Assembly (NCBI GenBank): GCA_031763025.1
Contig: JASSKH010000036.1
Location: forward strand, 3,211,001-3,275,000
DNA: 64,000 bases
Direction: 5' to 3'
From: Macrocystis pyrifera
Taxonomy: Eukaryota; Sar; Phaeophyceae; Laminariales; Laminariaceae
This document shows, one piece after another, positions 10,661 to 62,840 of the stretch. How positions within the stretch are numbered: position 1 is the stretch's first letter; the number at the start of each line of letters is the position of its first letter. The position numbers and the translations under genes are program-made. Below the pieces are notes generated by a model. It did not search any database. It was not told where the DNA came from and was given only the letters and a program-made list of their open reading frames with translations.

Positions 10661-13600
10661 TGCTAAAATTATTCAAATAAGATCCCGCCAGTACGACCTG
10701 GCGTAGATCTTCGACATATATATCTTGACACATACATACATATCTCGTATACACTACTTTCGAATCCACACAAAAAGCCATATAAAATAATATCTAGACA
10801 TTAAAACAACAGAAGTAGCAAAAACAGCAGCAGCAAGAACAGCAACATTATTCACACTTAGAACCATACTAATAAAAACAACAGAAGTAATAAAAACAGC
10901 AGAAGCAAGAACAGCAGCAGCTCATCTCCGAAAGAATTATTCCCACTTAGAACCAAATCAACAACACTCAATCAATCTATAAATATTTGTGAAATGCAAA
11001 GGTTTCAACATGTTGCAACATCATATCAATAGGCTCTCACGAGCTATGAGCACACAGCTCAGGCATATGCCAGGTACACAACAGACAACATGCACAGATC
11101 CCACCGTTCCAACGCTGCCGTCCCCCCGCCCACCCGCCGTGCGTGCACGACACATCCTTATGCGCAGTGTTGCTGTGGTTGGTTGCGTTTGTCGGAGCCT
11201 GCAATCCGCATTTTTGATCCGTATATACCCATGATGATGTATATATCCCTGTACATATTTTTTGTGTTGCTCGGAGCACGGACCACCGCCTAGAGAACAA
11301 TATAGCCACAGCAGTTAACAGAGCGTGCTTATACCTCCAGCTTCCTACAGCACCACAACCCTGCTGCCCTGCTGCCCAGCAGCAGCAGCAGTGGGCACAC
11401 CTTGCGCGTATGGATGATCGTACTGCGGCTATCACAGTTGGTTTATTCGATCAATCACTTGACCACGCCACGAACACACCAACCAGCATCACACACCTCT
11501 CTCCCTGCTTCAGAATCCTCTTCTTCTGCTTATTGCTGTGTGTGATCCAAACTTTGCCACTGCTCCAGCTGTGCTCAGCACAGTGCGCCAACAGCAGCAG
11601 CAGGCAGGGTACTATGCGCATGTAGAAGATCCGCGCTGTAAGCTCAGTACCACTGTAGTTCGTTGTTGTCATCGGCATTGGCCGATGCACGTACCTTCGG
11701 CAGTGTGTGACCCATTATCCCCGGATCGATATATTCGTCGTCTCGAGTACAACAAGAACAAATCGTTCGTGATTATTCGTACAGCAGCGTTCGTGCATAA
11801 CATACTTGCAGCAGTAGTTCTCATTGCTGTGTGTCCTACATTGCTGACCGATAGATCCTAGAGCCAGCTGAAAGGGGGGTCAATACACGTACGTTTCTCG
11901 CGTGGCATTCTACAGCAGTATTGCTGTATATCCAGTCGTACCTGTACAAAGCTACTCTACTGCTGTGGGAGATCGTGCAAAGTGTTTTAGATTGCGTAAA
12001 AATCGCGACGTGCCAGTTGTTCGAGCACTGTAATAGCATAGACGTCTATACTGCGCGCGATAAAAAATTCGTTTCCGAGGTTCGACTCGCACCATCCACC
12101 CTTTTTATTTAAGTCACTTTTTGTTACTTTTTTTGTACCAATAATAAGACTACAACAGTACTATTAATATTAATAATAATACATTCGTCCACACCTTGCT
12201 TTTGTGAACGTGTGCGTAGTATGATATTTTTTTTTTTATTTTGTTATAAATTTTGAAATACGTCAGCTGTGAGTTCGACTGATTAAATATTAATATAATA
12301 AGTTGTGTGTGTTAATTTTCCACCTTTGGCTTTTTTTGTACCGACCAGTACATTCATCCACCTTGCTTTTCTGAACGTACAATATGATGTTGTAGTTACT
12401 TGTGTGTTTTTTTCCAAGGAAAAGAGTTTGGGCGCGCTCACGTGTGGCGTGCGTTCACACCTCAACATTTCACAGCTACTCCTAATAGTTGGGAGTAAAG
12501 CAAAGTATGTTCGAGAGAATACTGCTCTTATTATCGTAGGTATAATACTTCGTACACTCGCGGTACTTCGGGGTTTTTGCAGTCGAGATACTGCGAGTTC
12601 TCGCAGTATTTTAAGGTTCTCTGTCAATATGCTACTTCGTATACTTTCGGGCTCGCACTATTAAAAATATAAAATAATAATGCTGGGTTCGCTACTGCTG
12701 CTAGCGTGGATACCCCCTGTTGTGCTTCAAGTGTCTCGGGGTTCTGTACCGCGGGTACTACTACAAGTATTCTAGTCTACACAGTAGTAGCAGTATTTCG
12801 TCCGTTGGTAGTGTTCGTACTGCTGCTTCTGCAAAAGACTCAGTACTCGCAGTTATGAAATACCCTCAATATGTCCAGTATACTTCGAGTGAGTACCATG
12901 TATACTTCAACCGTATGTGCACCGCGTCGACAATTACTTCTCAGGCCCAGCGTTCGGCACCAAACACACCTAGGTAATCCCACACGAGTGGGAGTTGGAG
13001 CAAACCACTTTCGCCGGAGACAACTTGAGTACGTAAAGCAGTCTGGCAGTATTTCGAGATACGCTTTTGCAAGGAATATATATGCATGTACTGCGAATAC
13101 TCTTAAGTATCTCGAGGTTCTGTACTACTGCGCATATTGCCCTTTTACTCCAAGTATTTCGTGTTTCGATACTACTGCGGGTACATATTTTCTTCCTGTA
13201 TTCTCGGGTTCGGTACTGCTCACACCCTCATTACTCTCGGTGTTTGGGCCTTCTCAGTGCTGGCAATATTTTTGCCGCCAGTACTCCAATACTCTCACAA
13301 TGCTCGGACTACGGTTCTCGCCGAGCATTTACCTGTGAAACATTGATGTTACCCTGAGCACCAAGAAACATTTATTTTGGGGAACATATATATACATTGT
13401 AACAGTATGTATGTGCTGTACCTTACTCAACCGGTCACAAAGTATTATGGCGCAACCTCGACTTCGCGCAACATTTTTGTATGAATTAATCGCCGCGAGT
13501 CGGCTGGATCAATTTATTATCCACTTATCGCTACCTTATTTTATTCTATTGTACTAATGGTGCCACACTAATTCCGCGAATAGCAGTATCTAATAGTCTG

Positions 13601-13790
13601 TCCTCAAAAATATGTAGTGTGTCTTCACGTTAAAATGATGGGTGGATGCAGGTACTACTTCTACACACAACAAGTGTGCAGGGTTGCATACGAATATTAT
13701 TTCGCTCTTGCGCCACTCCCCTATTCATACGGCACCTCCCGGAGGGGAACCTTGTATGTATTATTAATATGATAGTATTTTCATAGAGTG
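10660..13790. other. No gene recognised; short degenerate repeats
   Basis: I see no supported gene in these 3.1 kb. Structure visible: a ~59-bp A-rich repeat with AACAGCAGAAGCAAGAACAG at 10800-10960; a duplicated CACCTTGCTTTT(G/C)TGAACGT block at about 12190 and 12360; and from about 12540 to 13330 a diffuse series of AGTATTTCG / TACTGCGGGTAC words, including a hairpin ACTGCGAGTTCTCGCAGT near 12592-12610. Open frames of 100-155 codons in the last part have unusual composition and no recognisable domain. Confidence 0.6.
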
Positions 13791-14302
13791 TTGAGTGATT
13801 CTCGGGTACTCTGTTTTCTTCATTTCGTCTCCCCGAGTTCAGCAAATGTACGTACCGGGTATGTGTGTATACAAATGAAGAGTACTATCAATACACACAG
13901 CAGGAGTACAAGGTCTTATTCCTCAATGTTTCAACCCTTTCAAGTCTCTGCCTTATAACCTTGATCCGGGGTGGTCGTATAGAGCAAGCTCTTTTCCTCC
14001 CTCCCCACTACTATGCTGTCGAGCATGCGGTCCTTTCTTTGATGCCTGCACGTTGCTTTGAGTAATACGTATTATTTTATTATAGTGTATAATAATCTGT
14101 GTTTCTCGGCTATTTGTGTATTTCGGTCGTGCGTGTCTTTGCGTGCCACATGCGTGATGCTGTTTCCTCCCACCACTGCCTTTCAAGTCTCTGTCTTATA
14201 ACCTAGATCCGGGGTGGTCGTGCGTGTCTTTGCGTGCCACATGCGTGATGCTGTTTCCTCCGACCGCTGCCTTTCAAGTCTGTCTTAAAACCTAGATCCG
14301 GG

Positions 14303-14638
14303 GTGGTCGTGGAGCAAGCTCTATGCTGTCGAGCATGTGGTCCTTTCTTGGATGCTTGCGTGTTTGTTGCTTTGGGCGTAGTACCATTACTGAAATTCTC
14401 CAACGAGCTACACTATATATTCTTTATCGCACTTGTTGCTTTTTTCTCCACATCAAACCGTTCTTTCTACCCGTCGACATCCAGCACAACCAGTGTCCGT
14501 GCCGATTCTTCAATCCTAGAGAGATACAAGTTCGGTGGTCACAAACTGCCTGGCCACCACCGGAGTTTTGTTTTTCGTATGTACGTGGCAACAAGCGTCA
14601 TCACTCTCATGGCTATGCTACCAGGTATTAATATATAA
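14303..14638 (+). other. Repeated open frame within array unit (doubtful gene)
   Basis: A 111-codon frame with a hydrophobic start and the string RYKFGGHKLPGHHRSFVF is preserved in the units at 15276-15611, 16118-16534 (138 codons, extended start) and 20068-20484. In the unit at 17263, a short insertion (ACACCAGG) moves the same downstream sequence into the overlapping frame. A second frame of about 102 codons overlaps it and is equally open. As the copies are nearly identical in DNA, open frames say little about selection. I leave it as a repeat by-product, with a small chance of a short secreted or membrane protein. Confidence 0.2.
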
Positions 14639-17600
14639 CATTGTTACTAAATATATGTATTATTCTTAATACAATAGTAATTTAATTGAGTGTTGTGTGA
14701 TTCTCGGGTACTCTGTTTTCTTCATTTCGTCTCCCCGAGTTCAGCTAATGTACGTACCGGGTATAGTATGTACGTGTGTATACCCATGAAGAGTACTATT
14801 AATACATACAGCAGGAGTACACGGTGTTCTTCCTCAATGTTTCAACCCTTTCAAGTCTCTGCCTTATAACCTTGATCCGGGGTGGTCGTATAGAGCAACC
14901 TCTTCTCCTCCCTCCCCACTACTACTCTGTCGAGCATGCGGTCCTTTGTTTGATGCCTGCGTGTTGCTTTGGGAGAGTAATACGTATTATTTCATTAGAA
15001 TGCATAGAGAGCAAGCTCTTCTCCTCCCTCCCCGTATAGAGCACTTCTCCTCCCTCCCCCCCACTACTATGCTGTCGAGCATGCGGTCCTTTCTTTGATG
15101 CCTGCATGTTGCTTTGGGAGAGTAATACATATTATTTTATTATAGTGTATAGTGCATATTCTGTGTTTCTCGGCTATTTGTGTATTTCGGTCGTGCGTGT
15201 CTTTGCGTGCCACATGCGTGATGCTGTTTCCTCCGACCGCTGCCTTTCAAGTCTGTCTTAAAACCTAGATCCGGGGTGGTCGTGGAGCAAGCTCTATTAT
15301 GTCGAGCATGTGGTCCTTTCTTGGATGCTTGCGTGTTTGTTGCTTTGGGCGTAGTACCATTACTGAAATTCTCCAACGAGCTACACTATATATTCTTTAT
15401 CGCACTTGTTGCTTTTTTCTCCACATCAAACCGTTCTTTCTACCCGTCGACATCCAGCACAACCAGTGTCCGTGCCGATTCTTCAATCCTAGAGAGATAC
15501 AAGTTCGGTGGTCACAAACTGCCTGGCCACCACCGGAGTTTTGTTTTTCGTATGTACGTGGCAACAAGCGTCATCACTCTCATGGCTATGCTACCAGGTA
15601 TTAATGTATAACATTGTTACTAAATATATGTATTATTCTTAATACAATAGTAATTTAATTGAGTGTTGTGTGATTCTCGGGTACTCTGTTTTCTTCATTT
15701 TTCGTCTCCCCGAGTTCAGCTAATGTACGTACCGGGTATAGTATGTACGTGTGTATACCCATGAAGAGTACTATTAATACATACAGCAGGAGTACACGGT
15801 GTTCTTCCTCAATGTTTCAACCCTTTCAAGTCTCTGTCTTATAACCTTGATCCGGGGTGGTCGTATAGAGCAACCTCTTCTCCTCCCTCCCCACTACTAT
15901 TCTGTCGAGCATGCGGTCCTTTGTTTGATGCCTGCGTGTTGCTTTGGGAGAGTAATACTTATTATTTTTTTATAGTGTATAGTGCATATTCTGTGTTTCT
16001 CGGCTATTTGTGTATTTCGGTCGTGCGTGTCTTTGCGTGCCACATGCGTGATGCTGTTTCCTCCCACCACTGCCTTTCAAGTCTCTGTCTTATAACCTAG
16101 ATCCGGGGTGGTCGTGCGTGTCTTTGCGTGCCACATGCGTGATGCTGTTTCCTCCCACCGCTGCCTTTCAAGTCTCTGTCTTAAAACCTAGATCCGGGGT
16201 GGTCGTGGAGCAAGCTCTATGCTGTCGAGCATGTGGTCCTTTCTTGGATGCTTGCGTGTTTGTTGCTTTGGGCGTAGTACCATTACTGAAATTCTCCAAC
16301 GAGCTAAACTATGTATTCTTTATCGCACTTGTTGCTTTTTTCTCCACATCAAACCGTTCTTTCTACCCGTCGACATCCAGCACAACCAGTGTCCGTGCCG
16401 ATTCTTCAATCCTAGAGAGATACAAGTTCGGTGGTCACAAACTGCCTGGCCACCACCGGAGTTTTGTTTTTCGTATGTACGTGGCAACAAGCGTCATCAC
16501 TCTCATGGCTATGCTACCAGGTATTAATATGTAACATTGTTACTATATTTATGTATTATTCTTAATACAATAGTAATTTAATTGAGTGTTGTGTGATTCT
16601 CGGGTACTCTGTTTTCTTCATTTCGTCTCCCCGAGTTCAGCTAATGTACGTACCGGGTATAGTATGTACGGGGTGTATACCCATGAAGAGTACTATTAAT
16701 ACATACAGCAGGAGTACACGGTGTTCTTCCTCAATGTTTCAACCCTTTCAAGTCTCTGTCTTATAACCTTGATCCGGGGTGGTCGTATAGAGCAACCTCT
16801 TCTCCTCCCTCCCCACTACTATTCTGTCGAGCATGCGGTCCTTTGTTTGATGCCTGCGTGTTGCTTTGGGAGTATAATACGTATTATTTCATTAGAATGC
16901 ATAGAGAGCAAGCTCTTCTCCTCCCTCCCCGTATAGAGCACTTCTCCTCCCTCCCCACTACTATGCTGTCGAGCATGCGGTCCTTTCTTTGATGCCTGCA
17001 TGTTGCTTTGGGAGAGTAATACTTATTATTTTTTTTATAGTGTATAGTGCATATTCTGTGTTTTCTCGGCTATTTGTGTATTTCGGTCGTGCGTGTCTTT
17101 GCGTGCCACATGCGTGATGCTGTTTCCTCCCACCACTGCCTTTCAAGTCTCTGTCTTATAACCTAGATCCGGGGTGGTCGTGCGTGTCTTTGCGTGCCAC
17201 ATGCGTGATGCTGTTTCCTCCGACCGCTGCCTTTCAAGTCTGTCTTAAAACCTAGATCCGGGGTGGTCGTGGAGCAAGCTCTATGCTGTCGAGCATGTGG
17301 TCCTTTCTTGGATGCTTGCGTGTTTGTTGCTTTGGGCGTAGTACCATTACTGAAATTCTCCAACGAGCTAAACTATACACCAGGTATTCTTTATCGCACT
17401 TGTTGCTTTTTTCTCCACATCAAACCGTTCTTTCTACCCGTCGACATCCAGCACAACCAGTGTCCGTGCCGATTCTTCAATCCTAGAGAGATACAAGTTC
17501 GGTGGTCACAAACTGCCTGGCCACCACCGGAGTTTTGTTTTTCGTATGTACGTGGCAACAAGCGTCATCACTCTCATGGCTATGCTACCAGGTATTAATA

Positions 17601-17944
17601 TGTAACATTGTTACTATATTTATGTATTACGAGCTGGGCTGGCCAAGAGCAGCTTTTTAGTTCGTGCGTTCATATCTCATGAACGACGACGAAGTAGCCA
17701 GAGCTGATCATATCCTCTTGATCGGCCAATCAAAGCGGTCATGCACGTCTATGTTGTGTGCTGATTGGGCACGATCGCACAAATGCTTTCTTTTTTCGAG
17801 TAGTTTATTGAACTTTTTCACATGAAAACGTCTTTTTTATGCGGCGAAATATATTAAAAAATAAAAACTCGAGACAAAGCAACCCATCCCACATCCCACC
17901 TCGTGCAACAAGCGCACGCCAGCACCTATACGAGCGCGAAACAC

Positions 17945-19078
17945 ATGGCGCCCAGCTCGCCTACGAGTACGGACACGAGCAGCCGCCGGCTGAAGACTTC
18001 CAGCGTCCGCCATTACGTAGAGAGTGGGTCTGGGAAGCACAGGCTCTGGGTCAACTTCACTCCAGCGACAGGAAAGCGATCGGTTTGGAAAACGTCCAGC
18101 AGATTTGATTCCCATGAGGAGGCTCTCGAGGCTAGCGATGCCTTCAGGGCCATCTGGGAACACAGCGTGAGGGGCTTAGCTGCCAGTGCTGACGTGGTCC
18201 ACCGTGTGCTAGGGTCGACTCCAGCGGCGGAGATTGCGGAGCTACCAGCAGGCAAGTGCCGCACGCTTTGCGTGTTCGCGGATACCAAATTTGAATCGCA
18301 TTTTTTGTGGTTTTTGTGCTGTGTTTTTTGTCCGTTTGGACCAAGATAGACTGGAATGTAAATATCGTTTGTGTACTATAGTGAAGATCATAATATCATT
18401 ATATTTTCGTCCAGATTGGTATATGTACTGCTGTACGTAAACCTTGCTTGGTATCGGAGCATGCTCTTTTCGATTATACTCGTGCTTGCACTCGTACTCG
18501 TACAGTGGTCGTGCTGCTGTGCGCGTGCTGCCATCTGCACGCACTGCTATCTGCGCGTGATGCTTAGTGTACGTACGACGTACCTGGAACCTCGTATAAG
18601 TTTGTCTGTGTTGCTGGGTACGTACTGTCGATATGGACACCACTCGTGCCGCTGTCTGTGTGTACTGTGCAACCTGCGCGCCTGCTTGCTTTGGTATTTG
18701 CATTGAGACCTCACACAACCCCTCTGCCCTCTTGCAACCGCCCGCAACACCCCCACAGGGAAATCTCTCAACAGTCTCGGCTACCTGAACTGCGCACAAG
18801 CGAATCAGTTCAAGCGTCAGCGCAAGTGCGGCTCGACCTTGACCCGCGCACGATTCATAGCGGCAACGTGCTTGTCTGCTCGACAGAGGCGTTCCATTGT
18901 GCGGGGTCTGCAGGGGAGAACCGCAAGCGACACAGAGACTGGGACCGTTACCATCCATGACGTAATTCATATATCTGTCTTCTGGTACCGAAGTGTGACA
19001 CTTTATTCTCCCTTCGTACGTGTATCTAGCCGGGTGTACAGCGATGCTGGCCTCGGGCTCTTGCGGACAGGGGTATAG
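17945..19078 (+). CDS. AP2-like DNA-binding protein carried by a transposon (two exons)
   Basis: Exon 1 (17945-18251) starts at ATG and encodes a Ser/Thr-rich leader. An AP2/ERF-like segment follows, from SVRHYVESGSGKHRLWVNF to a helix-like SHEEALEASDAFRAIW at about residues 20-75. A CAG|GCAAGT donor and a CCCCACAG acceptor give a 507-nt GC-AG intron (18252-18758). Splicing keeps the frame and yields a Cys/Arg-rich C-terminal part (NQFKRQRKCGSTLTRARF), ending at 19078; about 208 residues in all. The AP2 fold binds DNA through a three-stranded sheet; here the match is by pattern only. Both exons lie wholly inside the TIRs. The short basic tail could serve nuclear targeting. No transposase motif is present. 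Confidence 0.5.
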
Positions 19079-19337
19079 GTTTTAGGTAACCGCTTCTTTG
19101 CGGTCTCACCTGAGTTCTCACGTGACTGTCGCCTGTTACTAGTACCACTATTTGCACGCATCACTCGCGCTCGTACTTGACCGCCAGCCAAAAAAACAGG
19201 TCGAACAAGTCCGGAGCGTGTTAGCTCGTATCGCGGCTTTCCCCCAGTTTCGCGGGAAATCGAAAATGTAGGATTCTCACACCAATTTTTATTTTTTTGA
19301 CCTGAAATTTTAATGCCCCATTCGCACTGGCAAGACA

Positions 19338-19475
19338 AAGGGATTACTTTCTGCACCACTTGAATTTTTTTTTTTTTTTCGTCAGTTTTGGTCGAATTTG
19401 TTTTTCGGTGATTCTTATAATGTGCCTTTAGCTCCCGAAAAAAAAAAAAAAAAAGTGGTGCAGTAATCAGTCCCT
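19338..19475. repeat. Nested hairpin with poly-T/poly-A arms
   Basis: Two arms are inverted copies: ATTACTTTCTGCACCACTT followed by a T15 run, and a long A run followed by AAGTGGTGCAGTAAT. The loop is about 60 bp. The structure lies near the right end of the AP2-carrying transposon. It looks like a small MITE or foldback element nested in it; no clear target duplication was found. Confidence 0.6.
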
Positions 19476-21348
19476 CGGGAAGACTACGATAAGGCACCTG
19501 TCAAAAATTCAGATCAAACTTCGAAAAAACGGACTGAGAATGTGCGTGACCAACTAAAAAGCTGCTCTTGACCAGCCCAGCTCGTATTCTTAATACAATA
19601 GTAATTTAATTGAGTGTTGTGTGATTCTCGGGTACTCTGTTTTCTTCATTTCGTCTCCCCGAGTTCAGCTAATGTACGTACCGGGTATAGTATGTACGGG
19701 GTGTATACCCATGAAGAGTACTATTAATACATACAGCAGGAGTACACGGTGTTCTTCCTCAATGTTTCAACCCTTTCAAGTCTCTGTCTTATAACCTTGA
19801 TCCGGGGTGGTCGTATAGAGCAACCTCTTCTCCTCCCTCCCCACTACTATTCTGTCGAGCATGCGGTCCTTTGTTTGATGCCTGCGTGTTGCTTTGGGAG
19901 AGTAATACTTATTATTTTTTTATAGTGTATAGTGCATATTCTGTGTTTCTCGGCTATTTGTGTATTTCGGTCGTGCGTGTCTTTGCGTGCCACATGCGTG
20001 ATGCTGTTTCCTCCCACCACTGCCTTTCAAGTCTCTGTCTTATAACCTAGATCCGGGGTGGTCGTGCGTGTCTTTGCGTGCCACATGCGTGATGCTGTTT
20101 CCTCCCACCGCTGCCTTTCAAGTCTCTGTCTTAAAACCTAGATCCGGGGTGGTCGTGGAGCAAGCTCTATGCTGTCGAGCATGTGGTCCTTTCTTGGATG
20201 CTTGCGTGTTTGTTGCTTTGGGCGTAGTACCATTACTGAAATTCTCCAACGAGCTAAACTATGTATTCTTTATCGCACTTGTTGCTTTTTTCTCCACATC
20301 AAACCGTTCTTTCTACCCGTCGACATCCAGCACAACCAGTGTCCGTGCCGATTCTTCAATCCTAGAGAGATACAAGTTCGGTGGTCACAAACTGCCTGGC
20401 CACCACCGGAGTTTTGTTTTTCGTATGTACGTGGCAACAAGCGTCATCACTCTCATGGCTATGCTACCAGGTATTAATATGTAACATTGTTACTATATTT
20501 ATGTATTATTCTTAATACAATAGTAATTTAATTGAGTGTTGTGTGATTCTCGGGTACTCTGTTTTCTTCATTTCGTCTCCCCGAGTTCAGCTAATGTACG
20601 TACCGGGTATAGTATGTACGGGGTGTATACCCATGAAGAGTACTATTAATACATACAGCAGGAGTACACGGTGTTCTTCCTCAATGTTTCAACCCTTTCA
20701 AGTCTCTGTCTTATAACCTTGATCCGGGGTGGTCGTATAGAGCAACCTCTTCTCCTCCCTCCCCACTACTATTCTGTCGAGCATGCGGTCCTTTGTTTGA
20801 TGCCTGCGTGTTGCTTTGGGAGTATAATACGTATTATTTCATTAGAATGCATAGAGAGCAAGCTCTTCTCCTCCCTCCCCGTATAGAGCACTTCTCCTCC
20901 CTCCCCACTACTATGCTGTCGAGCATGCGGTCCTTTCTTTGATGCCTGCATGTTGCTTTGGGAGAGTAATACTTATTATTTTTTTATAGTGTATAGTGCA
21001 TATTCTGTGTTTCTCGGCTATTTGTGTATTTCGGTCGTGCGTGTCTTTGCGTGCCACATGCGTGATGCTGTTTCCTCCCACCACTGCCTTTCAAGTCTCT
21101 GTCTTATAACCTAGATCCGGGGTGGTCGTGCGTGTCGTCGCGTGCCACATGCGTGATGCTGTTTCCTCCGACCGCTGCCTTTCAAGTCTGCCATACAACC
21201 TAGATCCGGGGTATTCGTGGAGCAAGCTCTATGCTGTCGAGCATGTGGTCCTTTCTTTGATGCTTGCGTGTTTGTTGCTTTGGGCGTAGTACCATTACTG
21301 AAATTCTCCAACGAGCTAAACTATACACCAGGTATTCTTTATCGCACT

Positions 21349-23436
21349 GTTGGGGATGGGAATGGATTCGTTATGGTACGTTAAAAAAACAAAGGATGTC
21401 GCATGGTCGTTATCGGGGGGAAAAAATCTTTAGGAAATTAACCAATCCGTGATTGGGAAAAAAAAACGTTTGCGACCAAAAAATCCGTTCTATGACGCTG
21501 CCTCTCAAAACAGAAAAATAAAATAAGAAGCAGCGCCGGCATCGATGTTGTGGCGTTGAGCTGTAGTTGGAAAAAAGTCAGCCTTGCTTTTTGCACGACA
21601 CGTGTTGCAGGACAACGCACAACCAAGCCCAGAGGATGGAGTTGCAGCGTAGACACGGACGCGCGAGCGTGAACGAATCGCACGTTCCTGGGGAGCCTTG
21701 GGATTGGCGACCGGCAGCACGAGAAAGCTGCCCCCCCCTGTGAAACACATTGTACAGATCAAGTCGCAGCATGCGGTCCTGTTTTACTGCTGTTAAATAG
21801 TAAACAAGAAGAACGTACCTCGTACCTACACACAGAGCATGGACACTCGGCTGCGTGTTGCTATACTGCACTTCGCCGAGACTGGGAGTTCGACGGGGCT
21901 GCCTGCACCTCCGTGGCAGCGCGCACCACTTCTAGCTCACGGGCGAGTTGTTGTTGTGTTACAGCAGGGTACAGCTCTCAGACCGTAAAAAGGAGCTGCG
22001 CTCGTTAGATCTCTGAGGCCGGCTCACCTGTTGTTTGGGAGTTCGAGGAAGTGCCTTCAAGCAGTAATGATCGGGTCACACAGAACGTGGATCGATGCAA
22101 TGCGGTAGATGCAAGCAGTCAGCGTTAATACTCAACGAAGCACCACAGACACGATGACGGGCACGACGGGCAAGGAAGGGCGCAAGGAGCTGGGGGTCGA
22201 TAGGACAGGTATCACAGACCACTTGGCGTTGACTTTCTTTCTTCACTCGTGGTGTTTTGTAAACACCGGGTGGTCCCGGAACCTCGTTACCGGCTCTGTA
22301 CCCGAGACCGAAGGCGTTCCCACACCGGGGATCCTCCCAGCCCCTATAAGATCCGCCCAGAGGATGCTAACCAAAGCTTGCCCTCTGCCTATCGAATAGA
22401 CCCGACGCGTGACCCTGATCAGGACAGTGGTCTCGCGCCGTATTATCCTCCCCATAGCGCTGGTCACGACAGTCACAGCGCTATGAACCTCCCTCCCTGG
22501 CGCCACCCGCTGTAACAGTTGTGCGTGCAGCTAGGCTTGAGCCTTGTGGCCAAGGCTGCATTCACCACGCGCCTGAAATATGCATGCTGCTGCTGTATGT
22601 ACTCGTACGTACGTCGTACCACTATGTCCGGAAATGTAAAGAACAGCTCATTTTCACATTCATGATTAAACCATTCCTATATTTCCGGACAGGGTGGTAC
22701 GCTAGAGTATTTTTACTCCGTCGTTTCCTCACGTGAGACAACAATAGTGATGCGTTCGCATCTGAACGCTAGGGGTAACTCGCTTCCTGCTGCATCAAGG
22801 CCCGATCACAGATGGTCTTCGCTGCTGCGATGACACCGGGTGTGATGGCGATCGCTCGGCGTGCGGCCGCTTTCATGTCTGGCACCGTTTGCGATACCAT
22901 GAAGACTGGACGTCCTTTGTTTTTATCTCGGGATACTTTTTTTCGAATTTCCCATCAACGATTGACTCTTCAAAAGAGGGTCAACTCGTGCAACAGATTT
23001 CATGTCGGCTACTTGTCGGATTCAGGTGCGGATTGCATTGCTGTGTGCGCAAAGTCATTCCGCATCGATTGACTAGTTTAGATTTTCGAGTATAGTCAAA
23101 TAGACAGAAAGATACGAATACAACCTAAAAAAATCGAGTTTTCCCGCGTATTTCCACAACAACTTAGCGGAGCAAAAATCTGCAGATCAAAACACAACCA
23201 GTCAGTGGATCATTCTCCATCGATGGGAGGTATCTGCCGAACTTTATCATCCAATTCGTTTTCCTGGTCGAGTAATCAGGTGCTCGGTGCTACACGTGAA
23301 TGTAATCTAAAACCAAGTAAATAGGGTGGTGGCAGACTACTTAAAAAAAATGTTCTTTCGACATTTTTTGAACGGACTCTCGAATAGACTGGACATTTTT
23401 TTACGTCTAAAACGAATCCATTCCCATGCCTAATCC
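21349..23436. mobile_element. ~2.1 kb TIR element without recognisable transposase
   Basis: The array sequence ...CTTTATCGCACT|TGTTGCTTTTTTCTCC is interrupted here. The inserted DNA has imperfect inverted ends built on GGGATGGGAATGGATTCGTT (left) and its complement (23410-23430), with a further similar ACGT(T)AAAAAAA part inside each end. Target duplication is unclear because a GTTG/(TTG)n tract lies at the right edge. Interior open frames (22109-22515 and others) show no transposase motif. An 88-bp hairpin with GTACCAC...GTCCGGAAAT arms lies inside at 22614-22701. Confidence 0.65.
22614..22701. repeat. 88-bp inverted-repeat mini-element
   Basis: CGTACCACTATGTCCGGAAAT at the left is matched by ATTTCCGGACAGGGTGGTACG at the right, about 21 bp with two mismatches, around a ~45-bp A/T-rich loop. 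It fits a short MITE nested in the larger TIR element. Confidence 0.6.
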
Positions 23437-24564
23437 GTTGTTGTTGTTGTTGTTGTTTTCTCCACACTAAACCGTTCTTTCTACCCGTCGACATCCAGCA
23501 CAACCAGTGTCCGTGCCGATTCTTCAATCCTAGAGAGATACAAGTTCGGTGGTCACAAACTGCCTGGCCACCACCGGAATTTTTTTTTCGTGTGTACGTG
23601 GCAACAAGCGTCATCACTCTCATGGCTACGCTATTAATATATAACATTGTTACCATATTTTTGTATTATTCTTAATATAATAGTAATTTAATAGAGTGTT
23701 GTGTGATTCTCGGGTACTCTGTTTTCTTCATCTCGTCTCCCCGAGTTCAGCAAATAAATGTACGTACCGGGTATAGTATGTATGTGTGTATACCCATGAA
23801 GAGTACTATTAATACATACAGCAGGAGTACACGGTCTTCTTCCTCAATGTTTCAACCCTTTCAAGTCTCTGTCTTATAACCTTGATCCGGGGTGGTCGTA
23901 TAGAGCAAGCTCTTCTCCTCCCTCCCCACTACTATTCTGTCGAGCATGCGGTCCTTTGTTTGATGCCTGCGTGTTGCTTTGGGAGAGTAATACATATAGA
24001 GCGTATAGTGTGTATTCTGTGTTTCTCGGCTATTTGTGTTCTTGATTCCGTCTCCCCGGAATCAGCAATTTTACGTACCAAGTATGTATACCCATGAAGA
24101 GCACTACATACAGCAGTAATAAGTATTGTGGTCTTCTTCCTCACACTACTGTTTCAACCCTTTCAAGCCTCTCTCTGTCTGATAACCTAGATCCGGGGTG
24201 GCCGCAGAGGACGCTCTTCTCCTCCCCCTCCTCACAACAACATTGTAAAGCGTCATCACTCTCATGGCCATTGCTGTTAATAAATAACATTATTACCATT
24301 CATTATATATATGTATTATTAAAAGTGATTCTCGGGTACTCTGTTTTCTTCATTTCGTCTCACCGAGTGCAGCAAATGTACGTACCGGGTATAGTATATA
24401 TGTGTGTATACCCATGAAGAGTACTATCAACACATACAGCAGGAGTACACGGTCTTCTTCCTCAATGTTTCAACCCTTTCAAGCCTCTCTCTGTCTTGTA
24501 ACCTAGATCCGGGGTTGGTCATAGAGCAGGTTCTCCCCCCGCCTTCCCGCTGTTGTAAAGTTTG

Positions 24565-31282: not shown

Positions 31283-34200
31283 CTACTTTGTGCGGCGAAG
31301 CCTCCTCGGCAATATCGTCTCTTGCACGGTTTCCTTCAGTGAACATACCATCACGCCGGTCTCGACTATCACCGCCAGTATCATGCCCAGATGGGCGGCA
31401 ACGAGGACACCTTCGAAGACCTTTTGGCCTCTAGCTCTTTCGTCGGAAACGTCTACCTTCAGCAGGAGAGCGACGTAAATGGTCACAAACACGACAACAT
31501 GTCCCATGCGACTTATCCACGAGTCCCATCTCGACGCAAACGGGGCTAACCCTTCCGATATCATCGCGAATACGAACGAAATAATCAGCGTCACCGCAAT
31601 CTGAGCCGAGGTGTTGGGATAGATGAAAACGACTGTCCCCGTCAGCAATACCCGTCGACCGCATTCGATTACCTCGTAGTAGAATATCGCCGGCTTGTAT
31701 GGCTTCCACAAGTCGGAAAAAAATTGGGTGCGCTGGCTCTCTTCGCGACCAGCTTCGTCCGTCAGCACCCCACGATTCCTATACAGCAGGCTGGTGTACA
31801 GGGTTGGGATTCCCACTGTGTAGAGCAAAACCATGAAGCCTGCGTAAACCTGGAACCCTCTGTGCTTTGAGGAATTACACTCAACACGATAGTCAGCGCG
31901 GAGATACGTCTTGCCATCCTCAAGATCATCACACGCAAACATCTGAAACAGAATAGAACTAACGCTCGAGTACACCAGAAATGTCAGTAACAGCACCATC
32001 GACATGTGCTTGTGCCGGATCCAATGGAGGGCTTCGGTTGGTCCTCGGTTACCTCTTGCCGCCACTAGGTACGTCAATCCAAGGAACATTGTGGCGATGA
32101 TAGGACCCATCGTTGCCATCAACAATCGGCCGTGGATGCCAATGTCGAACAAACAGCCTACCGACAGTTGAACGATCCAGCCGAGGTCGAAGGTGAGCAT
32201 GTTCACAGTGTCGAGGGAGCGCTGGTACACGTGAGGGTAGGTGACGTTCGCAATAGCGGTGAACTGGACAGGAAAACGAAACGGTTTGAAAAAACAAATG
32301 GGCAGGTATTACGTTGCAGCAGGTTGTTGAAAGGGTTCTTGCGTCAGCGCTATCGGCGTCGATTATGCATCGTGTCTAGCAATTATGTTGTTGTATCGTG
32401 TCTAGCAATTATGTTGTAGTTCCCTGGGACATATAGTGTCCCCTTCGTCGTGCTATTGGCCAAAGGCTTCCTCGTCAAACATCACAGGCATAAGCTAGAA
32501 TGCCGTGAAGGCCCAGCTCTGTGCACACATTGTTGTACTTCCACCGATCTCACAGAGACGATTAAATGATACCCTGTTAATGTGTATGCTTATGACAGCG
32601 TGTACTAGGCAGTACCGGTGCCGATTAAAGCCAGACGGCAATATCCATCTTATCAGGGGCCTTCACAATTGGGCAGGCACTATCCAAATCCTGATACCAA
32701 GTCAGTGTTACTCTCTATTATAATCGGCATTTTGTAGAGACGACCCTGACCTGTGTCACGATCTGCAACGTGACGATGATGATCTTGATAGATTGAAGGG
32801 GAATGAACCGCGTCACCCGCTCGATGGTCCCGCGGCCATCACCTTCCAGTTGGCTCGACATCGTGTACGACGCGATGACAACCGCAGCGACCAGGCCGAA
32901 CAAGACAAGAACGACCGCGATCACGATTCTGCCTGCTTTGTCCGAGCACTTCTCGCAGGCGAACCCGAAACTCGCGGCATATCGATCGCTGCAAACCGAA
33001 CAGTCTGTTGCATAGCGACACCCAGCATGGTTGGATAATCAGCATGTCAGGACATTGTATAGACCACTCACTGGCAGGGGCAACGAGCGGGGGAGATTAG
33101 CTAGGGATATTCCGATCTGTAATGATAGGCGTTGCCCTCTCCACCCATGTGGTATCAAGCTCATGGACCAAGGTATTTCACAAGATGGAGAAACCCCTCT
33201 CCCCAGCGCTGTGTAAAAAATGTGAATGCGTCAAACGCAACAAAATAACGCTTGACTTGCAACTTTGTGTTTGAGCCGTAAACGAGCGATGCGCATGTAC
33301 CACTGAGATTTGCACGGTGCTCGTTTCGACCTTGTTCCAACTTCAACCATCGTATGGTCCACATTTTTCAAAGTTCAATTTACTCTAGGATGCCGCTCAC
33401 ATGGTCCTTCGTGGCCGTTAAGACAGTAGCCAGGTGTCCCAGTCACACCTCCGAGGCAGACATCTTCTCTGAAGCATGCCATCACTTCCTCACTGGTCGG
33501 GGTGGCTCGCCAAAAGCCGCGGTCGATCAAGATTGTTTCCAATGTGGTTGCCCCGCCGACGCTAGTGGCATGCAGCATGAGCTGGGCGCAGATAGGAACC
33601 TCGACCGGTTCCTCAAAGGGGCATCCTTGACAAGAAGTCCGGCATCCGTTGCAAGCAACCTCATAGACATTACCCGACTGATGCGCAGAGCAACAAAAAT
33701 ACACGTTTCAGGTGATATTCCAACAACGATGTTGGCAGCTTTAGTTCGAGATAGAAACTTGTTCATGTGTCACACGGCGGGTGATGTTGTCGCACGGAGG
33801 GTTGTGTTGGTTCAATGCAACGAGCCCCAGTCTTGACGAGCGGCGAAACAGCCACTTGCAGAAGAGAGTGCGTACCTGTGATGTCTGCCACGTCTACCAG
33901 ACCCGAATCTCGCGCCACATGTCTATGAGGTGTTGCTTCGATCAATGCATCGCGACCGTAGAAAGCTTCTGCTTACCTCGTTGAAGTCCAGGTAAGTACC
34001 CGGTTGACAGTCGAAGACGTTGCCGATGAAGGAGCTGCCCGCTATCCTTCTAACGAAGCCAACGTTGTCTACGGCAGGCCCTTCCCCCTCGCCTGATCTG
34101 TTGTCCACAAAGGAGCAATTGTCTATGGACGTTTTGCCTCCTAGTCTCAAAGCCCCGCCAATGGCCGCTGTGTTACTCATGAATATTGTGTTGGAGATCT

Positions 34201-37200
34201 GATCTTGGCCAGCTACGCTTTCAATTGCCCCGCCAGTTGCTGTTGCCCGGTTGTCCACGAACAGGCATCCATCGAATTTAGTTGCAAATCCCGATGTTAT
34301 CTCGAACGCATTGAGGTTTTCATTGCCCGAACCAGTGACGTACGCACCACCGCCGGCCTCAGCGAAGTTGGAAACAAACCGTACAGCGGGGAATACCGGG
34401 CCAACACCAAAACTAGATTCGAAGACCGCCCCCCCCCACGACCCCGGCAGAATTACCATTGAACAATGCGTTTGGCCATTGAAACTTGATGGACAACATC
34501 CCGTTCAATGCTAAACCACCGCCGGTTGTCCCGGCTGTATTGTTCGTAAACGTAGTGGACCCTTTAATGACAAGCGTTGAACTCCGAGGGTTGAATACCT
34601 CGTCTAGAAACAGTGATCCAATTGCTCCTCCAGAGAAAATAGCGTTGTTGGATGCAAAATCCGTCCGTCCACTCCATTCCACTGATGATCCGTCTACGAG
34701 GTAGAGGGCACCGCCGAAGACTGCCGAACAGCTTTGAAATGCTGTATCTCCGCTCCAGGTCATATTAGAGTCACCTACTACGTATGCCGCCCCCCTAGAT
34801 ACAATAGCGGAATTGTTGTAGAACAAGCTCTCTCCGTTCCTGGAAATCCTAGAACCTTTGCTCATCCACAAAGCGCCACCAGCTCCGCCTTGAACCGCAG
34901 ACGCACGGTTATCTGCCAGCGTCGTCTTCCCACTCCACGAAACGTTAGAGTTTACCACACTAAGAGCACCTCCATTTGTGGCCGAGTTATTGACAAACTC
35001 CACACCTCCGTCCCACGAAACACTAGAATGCTCGCCAGCGTGCACTGCCCCTCCACCGAAGGCGGTATTCCCATGAAAATGTGTGCTCCCGAGAAAGACG
35101 ACACTCGAGTCAAACAAGGACACCCCCCCCCCCATTGTGGTCACCCAAGTTGTTGACAAAAGTCGACCTCCCTGTCCAGACAGCGGTAGTGCTATCCACG
35201 AAAACAGCACCACCAGACCCCAGGGCTTGGTTCTCGGCAAACATGGTCTCCCCGCCGAACGTAACAGCGGAATCCACCATGGTAAGGGCACCACCTGCCG
35301 GTGTGATATCGGATTTGTTCGCACCCAAGGCAAGATTCCCGTGAAAGGTGGTCCTCCCGTCTAAGGAGAGGTTTGAGCGATGTTGTGCATAAGCAGCACC
35401 CCCTTGTCCGGCCACGTTGCTTGAAAACGTCGTCTCCCCGTCCCACGCAATGTTTGAGTAGTCGGAGCCATACACAGCACCTCCTAGGGCTTCGGCGGTG
35501 TTGACAGAGAATGTTGTATTACCGCTCAACGTAACAGTGGACTCCATCACTCCAAGGGCACCACCTGATCGTGGAATAACCGATATATTCACACCCACGG
35601 CCATGTTCTGGTGGAAGGTGGTAATCCCGCCCATGGAGAGGTACGAGTTCGATTGCACAAACATGGCACCCCCGTCCTCTGCTAAATTTCTTGAGAGCTT
35701 TGTCTCTCCACTCATTACAACGATCGCGTCGTCGAAAACCGACACAGCGCCTCCCTGTATTGCCACGTTGCTTGAAAACGTCGTCTCACCGCGCAAGATC
35801 ATATTGGAGTAGTCGGTAACAAACACAGCGCCCCCCCTTTTTCCGGCGGTGTTAGCGGAAAATGTTGCGTTCCCACTCGAGGAGGCAGCGGATCCGCCGC
35901 TTATCATCATCGCACCTCCACTCAAGCCACTGTTTTCTATAAATCTCGTGTCCCCACTCCAAAAAGCACTGGAGCCGTTGGTCACCCGCATGGCGCCCCC
36001 GGTGAAGCCGGCTGTGTTGTTCCTAAATATTGTGGTCGAATTCCAGAAAACGTGGGAAGCGCCTAGTACATGAAGCGCACCTGCAAACTGCAATGCACTG
36101 TTCTGGTCAAATATGGTATCCCCGTGCCATTCAGTATTAGCGCTGCTCTGGACTGCAAGAGCCCCTGCGCTCCCCACCGCTCGATTTCCACGGTATGTGA
36201 CCTTTCCACTCCAAGACAAGCTAGAACGCTCCGTGATCATCACAGCGCCTCCATCGCCGCCAGCCGTGTTGTTGAAGAACGTTACACTCTCCCCAGTGCA
36301 GACGCTGTCCAGCACGAACATGGCACCACCGTCCATGGCCGCGGTGTTATCAGAAAAGCTGTTCTGCCCAACGAATGACACCACCGAGCTATCGGACGCA
36401 TACACAGCACCCCCGTGGCCGGTGGCAGCATTGCCGAAGAAAGTTGAATCGACGATAGTCAAATTCGATCGCGCTGCAGCGATTGCTCCGCCGACGGTGC
36501 CAGCACCATAGCTCACATTAATACCGGTCACGTGAACGGAAGCGTCCACGACAGTTAACAGCCGAATAGCAGAATCCCCATTCATACCAGCGGTTGAACC
36601 GTCGCCCGTCATACTCAGAACAGTCCCATTGAACACGTAAATCGTCTGGTCGACGACGACCTCTCCACGCCACAACACCTCGAACGACCCACCAGAGCAA
36701 TTCACAGCTTCGGCTAGAGCCCTGGCTTGTGCCGAATCCTCGACAACCCACACACGCTGGCCGTTCGCTGGGCAAGGCACAGAGGTAGATGGCGGCGGCG
36801 GCGGCTTGCAGTCGTAGATTTCATCACCAGCGCTCGGGTCCAGGCAGTCGAACTCGCTATAAACACAGGCACGGCCACTGCAGGTACACAAGCAGCAATC
36901 CCCTCCGTCGTAGCCGCAAGCCTGATTGTTGTTCTCAGCGGTACACACTCCGTCACCTATCGATAACACATTGCCTGCACATTCAGGGTATTGGATGGCG
37001 GTGGTTAGGTCGAAACAGGCTGAATCTTCGCAACTGAAGCCGTTAGAGCCACAGGGGTGCAAAGGGCCATCCGTGCAGGCACATTCACAGCAGTCTCCCC
37101 CATCGTAGCTGCAACCCAAATTGTTGGTTTCCGGATGGCACTTTCTGTCATGTAACCATGTGATATCCCCGGTGCAATTTTGGGTATTGAGGTGGATCTT

Positions 37201-37441
37201 CATCAGGACAGGCCGGGTCCCGGCAGTCGAAGCCGACGGAGCCACACTCATAAATACCATCAACGCACGTACACGCGCAGCAGTCGCCCCCGTCGTATTC
37301 ACAAGCCAGGTTGTTGGTTCCAGAGTCACAGTACCCGTCATTCAGAAAAGTCAAGTCCCCGGAGCAGGTCGTCGTCTGGGATAAGCACTGGCCCAACACC
37401 AGGACAAGGACGCCAAGGACGACGGCGACGCACCGGACCAT
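31283..37441 (-). CDS. LNR/Notch-repeat, Pmp-repeat, multi-TM receptor-like protein (frame-disrupted)
   Basis: Four exons on the minus strand: 37441-33977, 33677-33401, 33004-32751 and 32263-31283. The junctions are GT-AG and keep phase (for example GP-Y-CSVC across exons 2/3). From the start: a signal peptide (VVLGVLVLVLG); LNR modules with the C...YDGGDC pattern (three clear, at least one in each early segment); a PPPPP linker; then about 25 Pmp-type beta-helix repeats (GGA-x-x-V-x-x-S...W-SG-x-T-x-F-x-x-N). A Cys-rich GYW/CLGG/EGPYC module follows, then TM helices, and a last exon with five or more TMs and SSILFQMFACDD...YLRADY. It is probably a surface receptor or channel-like protein; ligand unknown. 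Exon 1 needs three one-base frame changes (about 37178, 35123-35133 and 34429-34437). Confidence 0.8.
34429..35133 (-). pseudogene. Two homopolymer frame breaks inside the Pmp repeats
   Basis: At the C11 run 35123-35133 (G11 on the coding strand) the frame stops after NNLGDHNGGGG, while the next frame continues VSLFDSSVVFLG. At the C9 run 34429-34437 the frame leaves SAGVVGGGG and the next one continues AVFESSFGVG. A third break, at the T4 run 37178-37181, separates DPPQYP from NCTGDITW. Each is corrected by removing one base, in the same direction. This is either homopolymer error in the assembly or decay; the otherwise intact repeats favour the former. Confidence 0.75.
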
Positions 37442-53392: not shown

Positions 53393-53850
53393 CCCAAAAA
53401 ATATATATATCAGAAACAAACCATCGTAGGTAGATTACGTACAAGTGTTTGTTCCCAATAGCAACATCACCACTTGATGTTGCATGTGTTTCTTGTTTCT
53501 TGTTTGAATAAGTTTTAGCATGTACAGTAGCAGTGTAACGCAGAGCAAGAAGAAAGTGAGGAGGAGGTATTATTAATAGAGATGATACTTGTCAGTAACC
53601 ATTATAGTCGTTACTCGATAACACTTGGTCATCTGGTACACATTTACTCAGTTTTCCAGTCTGTGAGTTATAGCAGTATACAGCAGCAGCAGCCATACAA
53701 TATTTACTGCTGTGCACTCGTAGCTCGTACACATTGCAGGATAGGTCTCAATATCAAGGAGTATCGTGGATCTACTGTATTACGTACGTACATGATCTAC
53801 AGCAACATGTTACACATGTACAGTAGTACCTGGTACGTGCGCACATGGGA

Positions 53851-53890
53851 CCCTAACCCTAACCCTAACACTAACCCCAACCCCAACCTA
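53851..53890. repeat. Interstitial telomeric tract (CCCTAA)n
   Basis: Three CCCTAA units followed by degenerate CTAACCCC units. The next ~200 bp (53900-54090) is a tract of alternating CCATGG / TGCCGTGG words, which forms many overlapping hairpins. Confidence 0.85.
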
Positions 53891-61822: not shown

Positions 61823-61855
61823 TAGGGTTAGGGTTAGGTTAGGGTTAGGGTTAGG
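61823..61855. repeat. Interstitial telomeric tract (TTAGGG)n
   Basis: Five GGGTTA-type units, one with a shortened spacer (GGTTAGG). It is followed at once by the 5' part of the non-LTR element. Confidence 0.9.
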
Positions 61856-61997: not shown

Positions 61998-62840
61998 GCA
62001 CTTGTGGTGGTAGCGACCTACAATGTGCGTACCCTGGCCGTAAAGGGGAAGAACGGGTACGGGCATTTCGAGTGCGTACTTGCGAAACGACAGCAACTCG
62101 GTTGTGACTTCATTGGTCTGCAGGAAACCCGATGGTCCGGCAACGCGAGATTTGGTGCAGCTGGATACCAAGTTTTTTGTTTCAGGCCAGGAAAACACAG
62201 CAGCGAGACAAGGGTTATATTGGGTAGGTTTAGCAGTAAAAGACTCAATATGCCGTACGTCTAAGTTCACTCAGCAGTTTTTGACGAACGACTTATGTCT
62301 ATGCGCTTTGAGTTGGACGGTCGGTGCGATGCGGTCAATTTCGTCGTTGCGTACGCCGCAACTGATTGTACCAAAGATGCCAAGCAGAAAGGCATGTTTT
62401 GGCGAAAGTTGGAGGACCTGGTTGAGCAGATTCCTGCTAAAGAGTGTTTGTTTGTGCTCATAGATGCCAATGGGCGAACTGGGGGGAGGATAGAAGGGTG
62501 CGGTGATGATGAATGTAGGGTGCTCGGAGCATACGGACGAGATGTTCGTAGTGATAACGGCAAACGGCTTTTTTCGTTCGCTGCCAGTTGCAAGCTAGCG
62601 CTCACCAACACATTTTTCAGCACGCGCAAGGGCGGGATATCGCATACGTACAACCGCACCAGCCTGAATGATCGTAAGCGAATCGACTACATCCTAACTC
62701 GTCAAGTCCATCGACCTAGAGTACATACTGTTACAGTCGTCCCACAGCCCCCACCACCTGCTAAGGCTGATTCAGACCATAACATCGTGTACATCAAGGT
62801 CCGACTTAGTGGTCACTTTCGTCTAACCGAAGATTGTTGA
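61998..62840 (+). pseudogene. EEP-type endonuclease domain of the LINE
   Basis: 61998-62215 gives ATYNVRTLAVKGK and FIGLQETRWSG (the catalytic Glu). A frame change near 62215 leads to LYWVGLAVKD, and another near 62290 to 62295-62840 with LIDANGRTG, RIDYILTR and SDHNIVYIKVRL, the closing Asp-His motif. The domain nicks target DNA to prime reverse transcription. At least two frame changes break it. Confidence 0.8.

Follow-up and report, generated by a model that had tools for sequence, protein, structure and literature searches.

How does a transposon with inverted ends and a TA target come to carry, as its only recognisable gene, a small spliced gene for a DNA-binding-like protein? The question is raised by an element in a stretch of Macrocystis pyrifera DNA of 64,000 nucleotides (the whole of which we call the window) on contig C126 of the genome searched here, which comprises 537 Mb in 223 contigs. 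A sequence-only reading of the window had proposed that the element carries no recognisable transposase but an AP2-like gene, perhaps as captured cargo or as a helper for binding its ends. Our comparisons with longer copies and related families lead us to a different answer, which we hold with high confidence: the window element derives by internal deletion from a TA cut-and-paste transposon of ~5.4 kb, is itself non-autonomous, and was probably spread in trans.

Structure of the window element

The element was found in an array of tandem units, each roughly 0.9–1.1 kb long (window 12000–24000). The target site is vacant in sister units at 14663, 15636, 16559 and 20509, exposing the TA duplication directly, and because the unit sequence is vacant elsewhere in the array the element could be delimited as CGAGCTGG...CCAGCTCG plus the TA duplication (Table 1). 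Counting the TA, the left and right inverted ends were 38 nt long (17628–17665 and 19549–19586), with a complementarity of 95%. A pattern derived from these ends had only two matches within the window, both of them the element's own ends, and 100 shuffles averaged 0.00 matches. The transposon with inverted ends and a TA target, as first read from the sequence, was thus confirmed by the 36-bp ends, the TA duplication and the unoccupied sister sites. Terminal inverted repeats such as those of the window element are a feature of the IS630-Tc1-mariner (ITm) group.

When exons 1 and 2 were joined, 208 codons stood open as far as a TAG stop at 19076–19078. The unspliced exon 1 frame passed the donor site and stopped only inside the intron. 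We also considered a transposase hidden inside the window element and rejected it, as six-frame translation of the element found none; the longest frame besides the gene was antisense (18242–18970, 242 codons) and lay across exon 2 and the intron.

Table 1. Features of the window element, in window coordinates
Feature	Position	Strand	Basis
TA target-site duplication, left	17628..17629	.	sequence and unoccupied sister units
Left terminal inverted repeat, starts CGAGCTGGGCTGG	17630..17665	+	inverted-repeat comparison, pattern search
Exon 1, 307 nt, phase 1: N-terminal domain of the putative transposase gene	17945..18251	+	
Predicted beta-beta-beta-alpha domain ("AP2-like"), residues about 17–77	17993..18175	+	structure model
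GC-AG intron, 507 nt	18252..18758	+	GC donor at 18252, AG acceptor before 18759
Exon 2 start of the putative transposase gene, as far as the deletion junction	18759..18924	+	
Internal-deletion junction	18924..18925	.	L034 holds 2,702 bp here, including the putative transposase body
Reading frame past the junction to TAG; tail varies among copies	18925..19078	+	
Right-hand end region common to the window element and long copy L034	18925..19548	+	
Right terminal inverted repeat	19549..19584	-	inverted-repeat comparison, pattern search
TA target-site duplication, right	19585..19586	.	sequence and unoccupied sister units

Short and long copies in the genome

A DNA search of the genome revealed partial copies and, counting the window's own, 22 full-length ones; the latter number is a lower bound, 40 of 196 candidates having been scored. 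The other 21 full-length copies were taken with 300-bp flanks. TA flanked every one of the 22, which occupied 21 distinct sites: two copies (L025 and L026) had common flanks, hence the 21 distinct flank pairs. Pairwise identity among the 22 was 98.5–100% (gap columns ignored), and the family of short copies is young. All of them shared one junction (window 18924/18925), with L018 and L024 differing by a single base just past it, and no clear microhomology was found at this junction. Every one of the 22 had a frame open up to the junction and had kept its GC-AG sites. Beyond the junction the tail was not uniform. The predicted stub ranged from 169 to 209 aa (208 aa in the window copy), and the ATG was missing from two copies, again L018 and L024.

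The material missing from the short form was seen in L034, first met as a partial match in the DNA search. L034 is a 5,378-bp element on contig C135 (L034:1386–6763, minus strand), flanked by TA and bearing the ends of the window element. Compared with the window copy it contained 2,702 bp extra, placed exactly at the junction of the short copies, and in its intron 742 bp replaced 57 bp of the window copy. The short form thus shares its ends with a longer copy and lacks one internal stretch of it, as expected of an internal-deletion derivative; the intron differs in length as well. The body of L034 included a frame of 548 codons (L034:2723–4369) with the motifs GQDES and EVDHLSGH, and GIEYSWG followed further on in another frame. 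L034 was the only close long copy found. Because its gene shifts frame several times, no source of active transposase was seen for the window family. A diverged copy, L045 (4,895 bp, TA-flanked), was 78–86% identical over the three longest aligned stretches, and here exon 2 continued past the position of the window's junction in a single open frame, leading on to the part of the protein that follows.

An unusual arrangement was observed at L036:1209–3662, where two right-hand ends lay face to face with remnants of the body between them. A frame resembling tubulin by eye lay ~200 bases away from this element.

Related families and the putative transposase

Besides L034 and L045, a search of the genome with the body matched nine more distant loci, which were taken as L047–L055. 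Seven of these (L047–L049, L051, L053–L055) were elements 5.2–5.8 kb long in which each end showed TA and CGAGCTGG; all seven had the order exon 1, exon 2, body. In L053, 886 codons were free of stops from exon 2 through the end of the body. For L056, L057 and L058 the body was known from a protein search alone and the upstream parts were fetched, which in L057 and L058 showed exon 1, exon 2 and the CGAGCTGG left end. Exon 1 was present in 12 of the 14 fetched loci with body sequence (L034, L045, L047–L051, L053–L055, L057, L058), although broken into pieces in L045 and represented by its second half only in L050; about ten further body matches from the protein search lie outside this count of 14 loci. 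The two loci from which exon 1 was absent were L052, a worn fragment, and L056 (C203:8735600–8738700). In the latter a related body opened with an exon-2-like stretch, and the 2.9 kb upstream contained neither a recognisable exon 1 nor an exact CGAGCTGG end; the first exon of this locus may be different or farther away. By our grouping the loci fall into five families (the window element with L034 and L045; L047–L050; L053–L055; L051; L057 and L058), and the order exon 1, exon 2, body was observed in five families, the window's counted. In L051 the body was in two pieces of opposite direction (L051:3497–6278) inside one 5,770-bp element.

GC donor, AG acceptor and phase 1 were found in all eight elements checked (window, L047–L049, L051, L053–L055; four families), and the exon junction read G-K-(S/A/N)-(L/Q)-N-S in each of the eight. 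Intron length in the seven related-family elements (three families) was 886–1232 nt. The GC-AG intron and the in-frame join of two exons, both read originally from the window alone, are backed by this recurrence in three related families and seven elements. Judged from sequence, the conserved intron indicates that exon 1 and the body belong to one gene, and exon 1 would be spliced onto the long body in the cell. The longer copy L034 and the exon order of the related families identify the "AP2-like gene" as the 5' end of the putative transposase gene; the proposal that such a gene had replaced the transposase, or had been captured as cargo, did not survive this comparison. Comparing L047 with L053, which represent two families, dN/dS over the 655 codons of exon 2 plus body was 0.29 and over the 104 codons of exon 1 was 0.40, the exon 1 value being approximate because synonymous change was high (0.90).

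In the long second part of the parent gene one can make out by eye a basic/coiled-coil stretch, another that resembles a helix-turn-helix, and a putative D-D-E catalytic body. Among 11 loci, D2 and E were present in ten, and D1 was D in eight and N in one (L045); D1 was not found in the other two (L051 and L052). The spacing in L053 was 115 residues from D1 to D2 and 210 residues from D2 to E. The three acidic motifs are a candidate catalytic triad, and presumably their order is that typical of the ITm group, whose transposases have a D-D-E/D triad in an RNase H-like fold and an N-terminal helix-turn-helix region that binds DNA. The TA duplication, also an ITm-group feature, was seen in all 22 short copies, in L034 and L045, and in L047–L049, L051 and L053–L055. 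One long gene was recognised in the long elements (the frames of L047–L055 being listed on one strand). From the motif pattern, the TA target and the fact that no other gene was recognised, we infer that this long frame is the transposase.

Profile libraries returned little for the body. Pfam and NCBIfam gave nothing significant, the best relevant row being HTH_29 (E 0.09, a single member out of 12), and a PDB profile search found no transposase. A genome search with PF13358 gave no match at these loci and two sub-cut-off rows elsewhere. The structure model of the body had a mean pLDDT of 38, too poor for use. The two sub-cut-off rows of the PF13358 search (DDE_3, best E 0.038) both lay in one frame of 417 codons at G000:C206:9819777–9820307, possibly another, unrelated transposase of the genome.

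Sailor (DD82E), a member of the IS630-Tc1-mariner group, occurs in stramenopiles with some elements >4 kb, and is described as having a D-E spacing of 78–111 residues and a target duplication that is mostly TATA (PMC8533490). The present elements resemble Sailor, so described, in the long spacing from the second D to E, but this spacing is 210 residues in L053 and the flanks are TA. With its extra N-terminal domain and very long D-to-E spacing, the parent family may be new.

The exon 1 domain and the history of the short element

AlphaFold models of nine exon-1 sequences placed strands at residues 22–25, 32–39 and 47–50 and a helix at 57–76, with block-mean pLDDT values of about 70–83 within the domain and a value of 62 overall. 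The predicted beta-beta-beta-alpha fold upholds the earlier guess of a small DNA-binding-like domain and fits AP2, among others. The AP2 label itself could not be kept: none of the exon 1 versions submitted to Pfam matched AP2, and a genome search with PF00847 gave four rows among its best seven candidates, none above cut-off and none at these elements. Because this search had no match above cut-off among its best candidates, no AP2-type host donor was seen either. Structural searches gave only non-significant rows, with dsRNA-binding domains and small bacterial or phage proteins among those at the top and an integrase arm domain lower; an AP2 entry was absent from the rows listed, an absence that excludes nothing. 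Compared with five AP2 domains, the exon-1 profile scored 16.7 against 9.1 ± 1.9 for 200 column shuffles (maximum 15.0), at a probability of only 4%, and this weak similarity spanned the second strand to the helix. The model shows the strand-strand-strand-helix order of AP2/ERF (PF00847), whereas the Pfam match is lacking, and we would call exon 1 AP2-like in predicted topology rather than an AP2 domain.

The deletion history most probably ran as follows. The gene of the parent began with a short exon for the predicted beta-beta-beta-alpha domain, which a GC-AG intron separated from the long second part and its putative D-D-E body. A single 2.7-kb deletion, which possibly arose in repair following excision, took away all that followed the initial 166 nt of exon 2. 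With both ends intact, the short form was probably mobilised by the transposase of other copies, and it now occupies 21 distinct sites.

Capture of a host AP2-type gene, unrelated to the transposase, by a non-autonomous Pack-TE-like element agrees with what the window alone displays, since no transposase is visible there, and giant transposon families of Ectocarpus are described as carrying only genes without transposase homology (PMC12477816). However, five families (the window's among them) have the same exon ahead of the body, and L034 and L053 already contradict such an origin; captured AP2 cargo was rejected on the evidence of L034, the exon order of the related families and the single 2.7-kb loss in the window copy, and we regard it as extremely improbable. 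We consider it very unlikely, too, that the parent was a transposon of two genes in which exon 1 is a small accessory gene adjoining a separate transposase gene. Exon 1 does have its own ATG, and the intron is long (507–1232 nt), but in the window the exon 1 frame crosses the donor to terminate only in the intron, and donor, acceptor and phase are all retained in the eight elements from four families.

A further reading would add to the deletion history rather than replace it. The stub of the short copies, being the N-terminal domain alone, might bind the ends or the transposase and so damp transposition in the manner of KP; only in this form does the earlier idea of an end-binding helper live on. 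Small internally deleted P elements provide a precedent, encoding for example the 207-aa KP protein (PMC7776569), and the open frame and GC-AG sites of all 22 short copies would suit such a role. We nevertheless think it unlikely, as open frames are expected of young copies regardless, the start codon is gone from two copies, the tail is variable, and the stub is without the helix-turn-helix-like stretch of the body. Nor do the substitutions argue for it: up to the junction, the unique changes of the 22 copies numbered 8 synonymous and 20 non-synonymous, with no stops (pooled pN/pS 0.82 on 28 changes), and unique changes per site were higher in exon 1 (0.075) than in the intron (0.053). The corresponding values were 0.029 for exon 2 (5 changes) and, outside the gene parts, 0.062 for the 5' region and 0.058 for the 3' region. 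There was no clear sign of selection keeping the stub, in a family too young for a firm negative. A broader version is distinctly unlikely in our view, namely that the elements form an undescribed TA lineage whose transposase gained a beta-beta-beta-alpha putative DNA-binding exon (AP2-like or dsRBD/integrase-arm-like), and whose short form would be a stand-alone end-binding regulator of the whole CGAGCTGG-tip group.

As an internally deleted derivative, the window element is of a known kind. Like other deleted DNA transposons (Ds, MITEs, the P-element KP type), it retains its ends and has lost the body internally; its short form outnumbers the long copy and may encode an N-terminal stub. It differs from P and Ac/Ds in belonging to a different superfamily. 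For the window, "cargo without transposase" gives way to an ordinary and well-supported history of deletion and then spread in trans. We see the parent family as a likely new variant. It targets TA and combines an additional domain at the N-terminus and a conserved GC-AG intron with very long spacing from D to E, and it escapes the profile libraries searched.

An Ectocarpus element invites comparison, in so far as its published description goes. TcMar-2_Ec32 is described as a Mariner-Tc1 element of 4.4 kb; its transposase has acquired at the N-terminus a domain named EsV-1-7, which may be a zinc finger. TcMar-N1_Ec32 is described as a 217-bp derivative of it with 27-fold higher copy number (PMC12477816). 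By this description the two systems are alike in their similar length, the added N-terminal domain and the driving of a short derivative; they differ in that the domain here is predicted to be beta-beta-beta-alpha and that the short derivative retains it. Because the Ectocarpus transposase added another kind of domain, the gain or exchange of N-terminal domains may recur.

Other observations concerned the rest of the window. Telomere-like short repeats (ACCCTA / TAGGGT) were present internal to the contig at window 53850–53888 and 61823–61855. On the minus strand, window 33923–37341 contained long short-repeat frames rich in GG and NN, by eye similar to a large repetitive surface protein, and a forward frame of 181 codons at window 62295–62840 resembled by eye the endonuclease part of a LINE-type retrotransposon.
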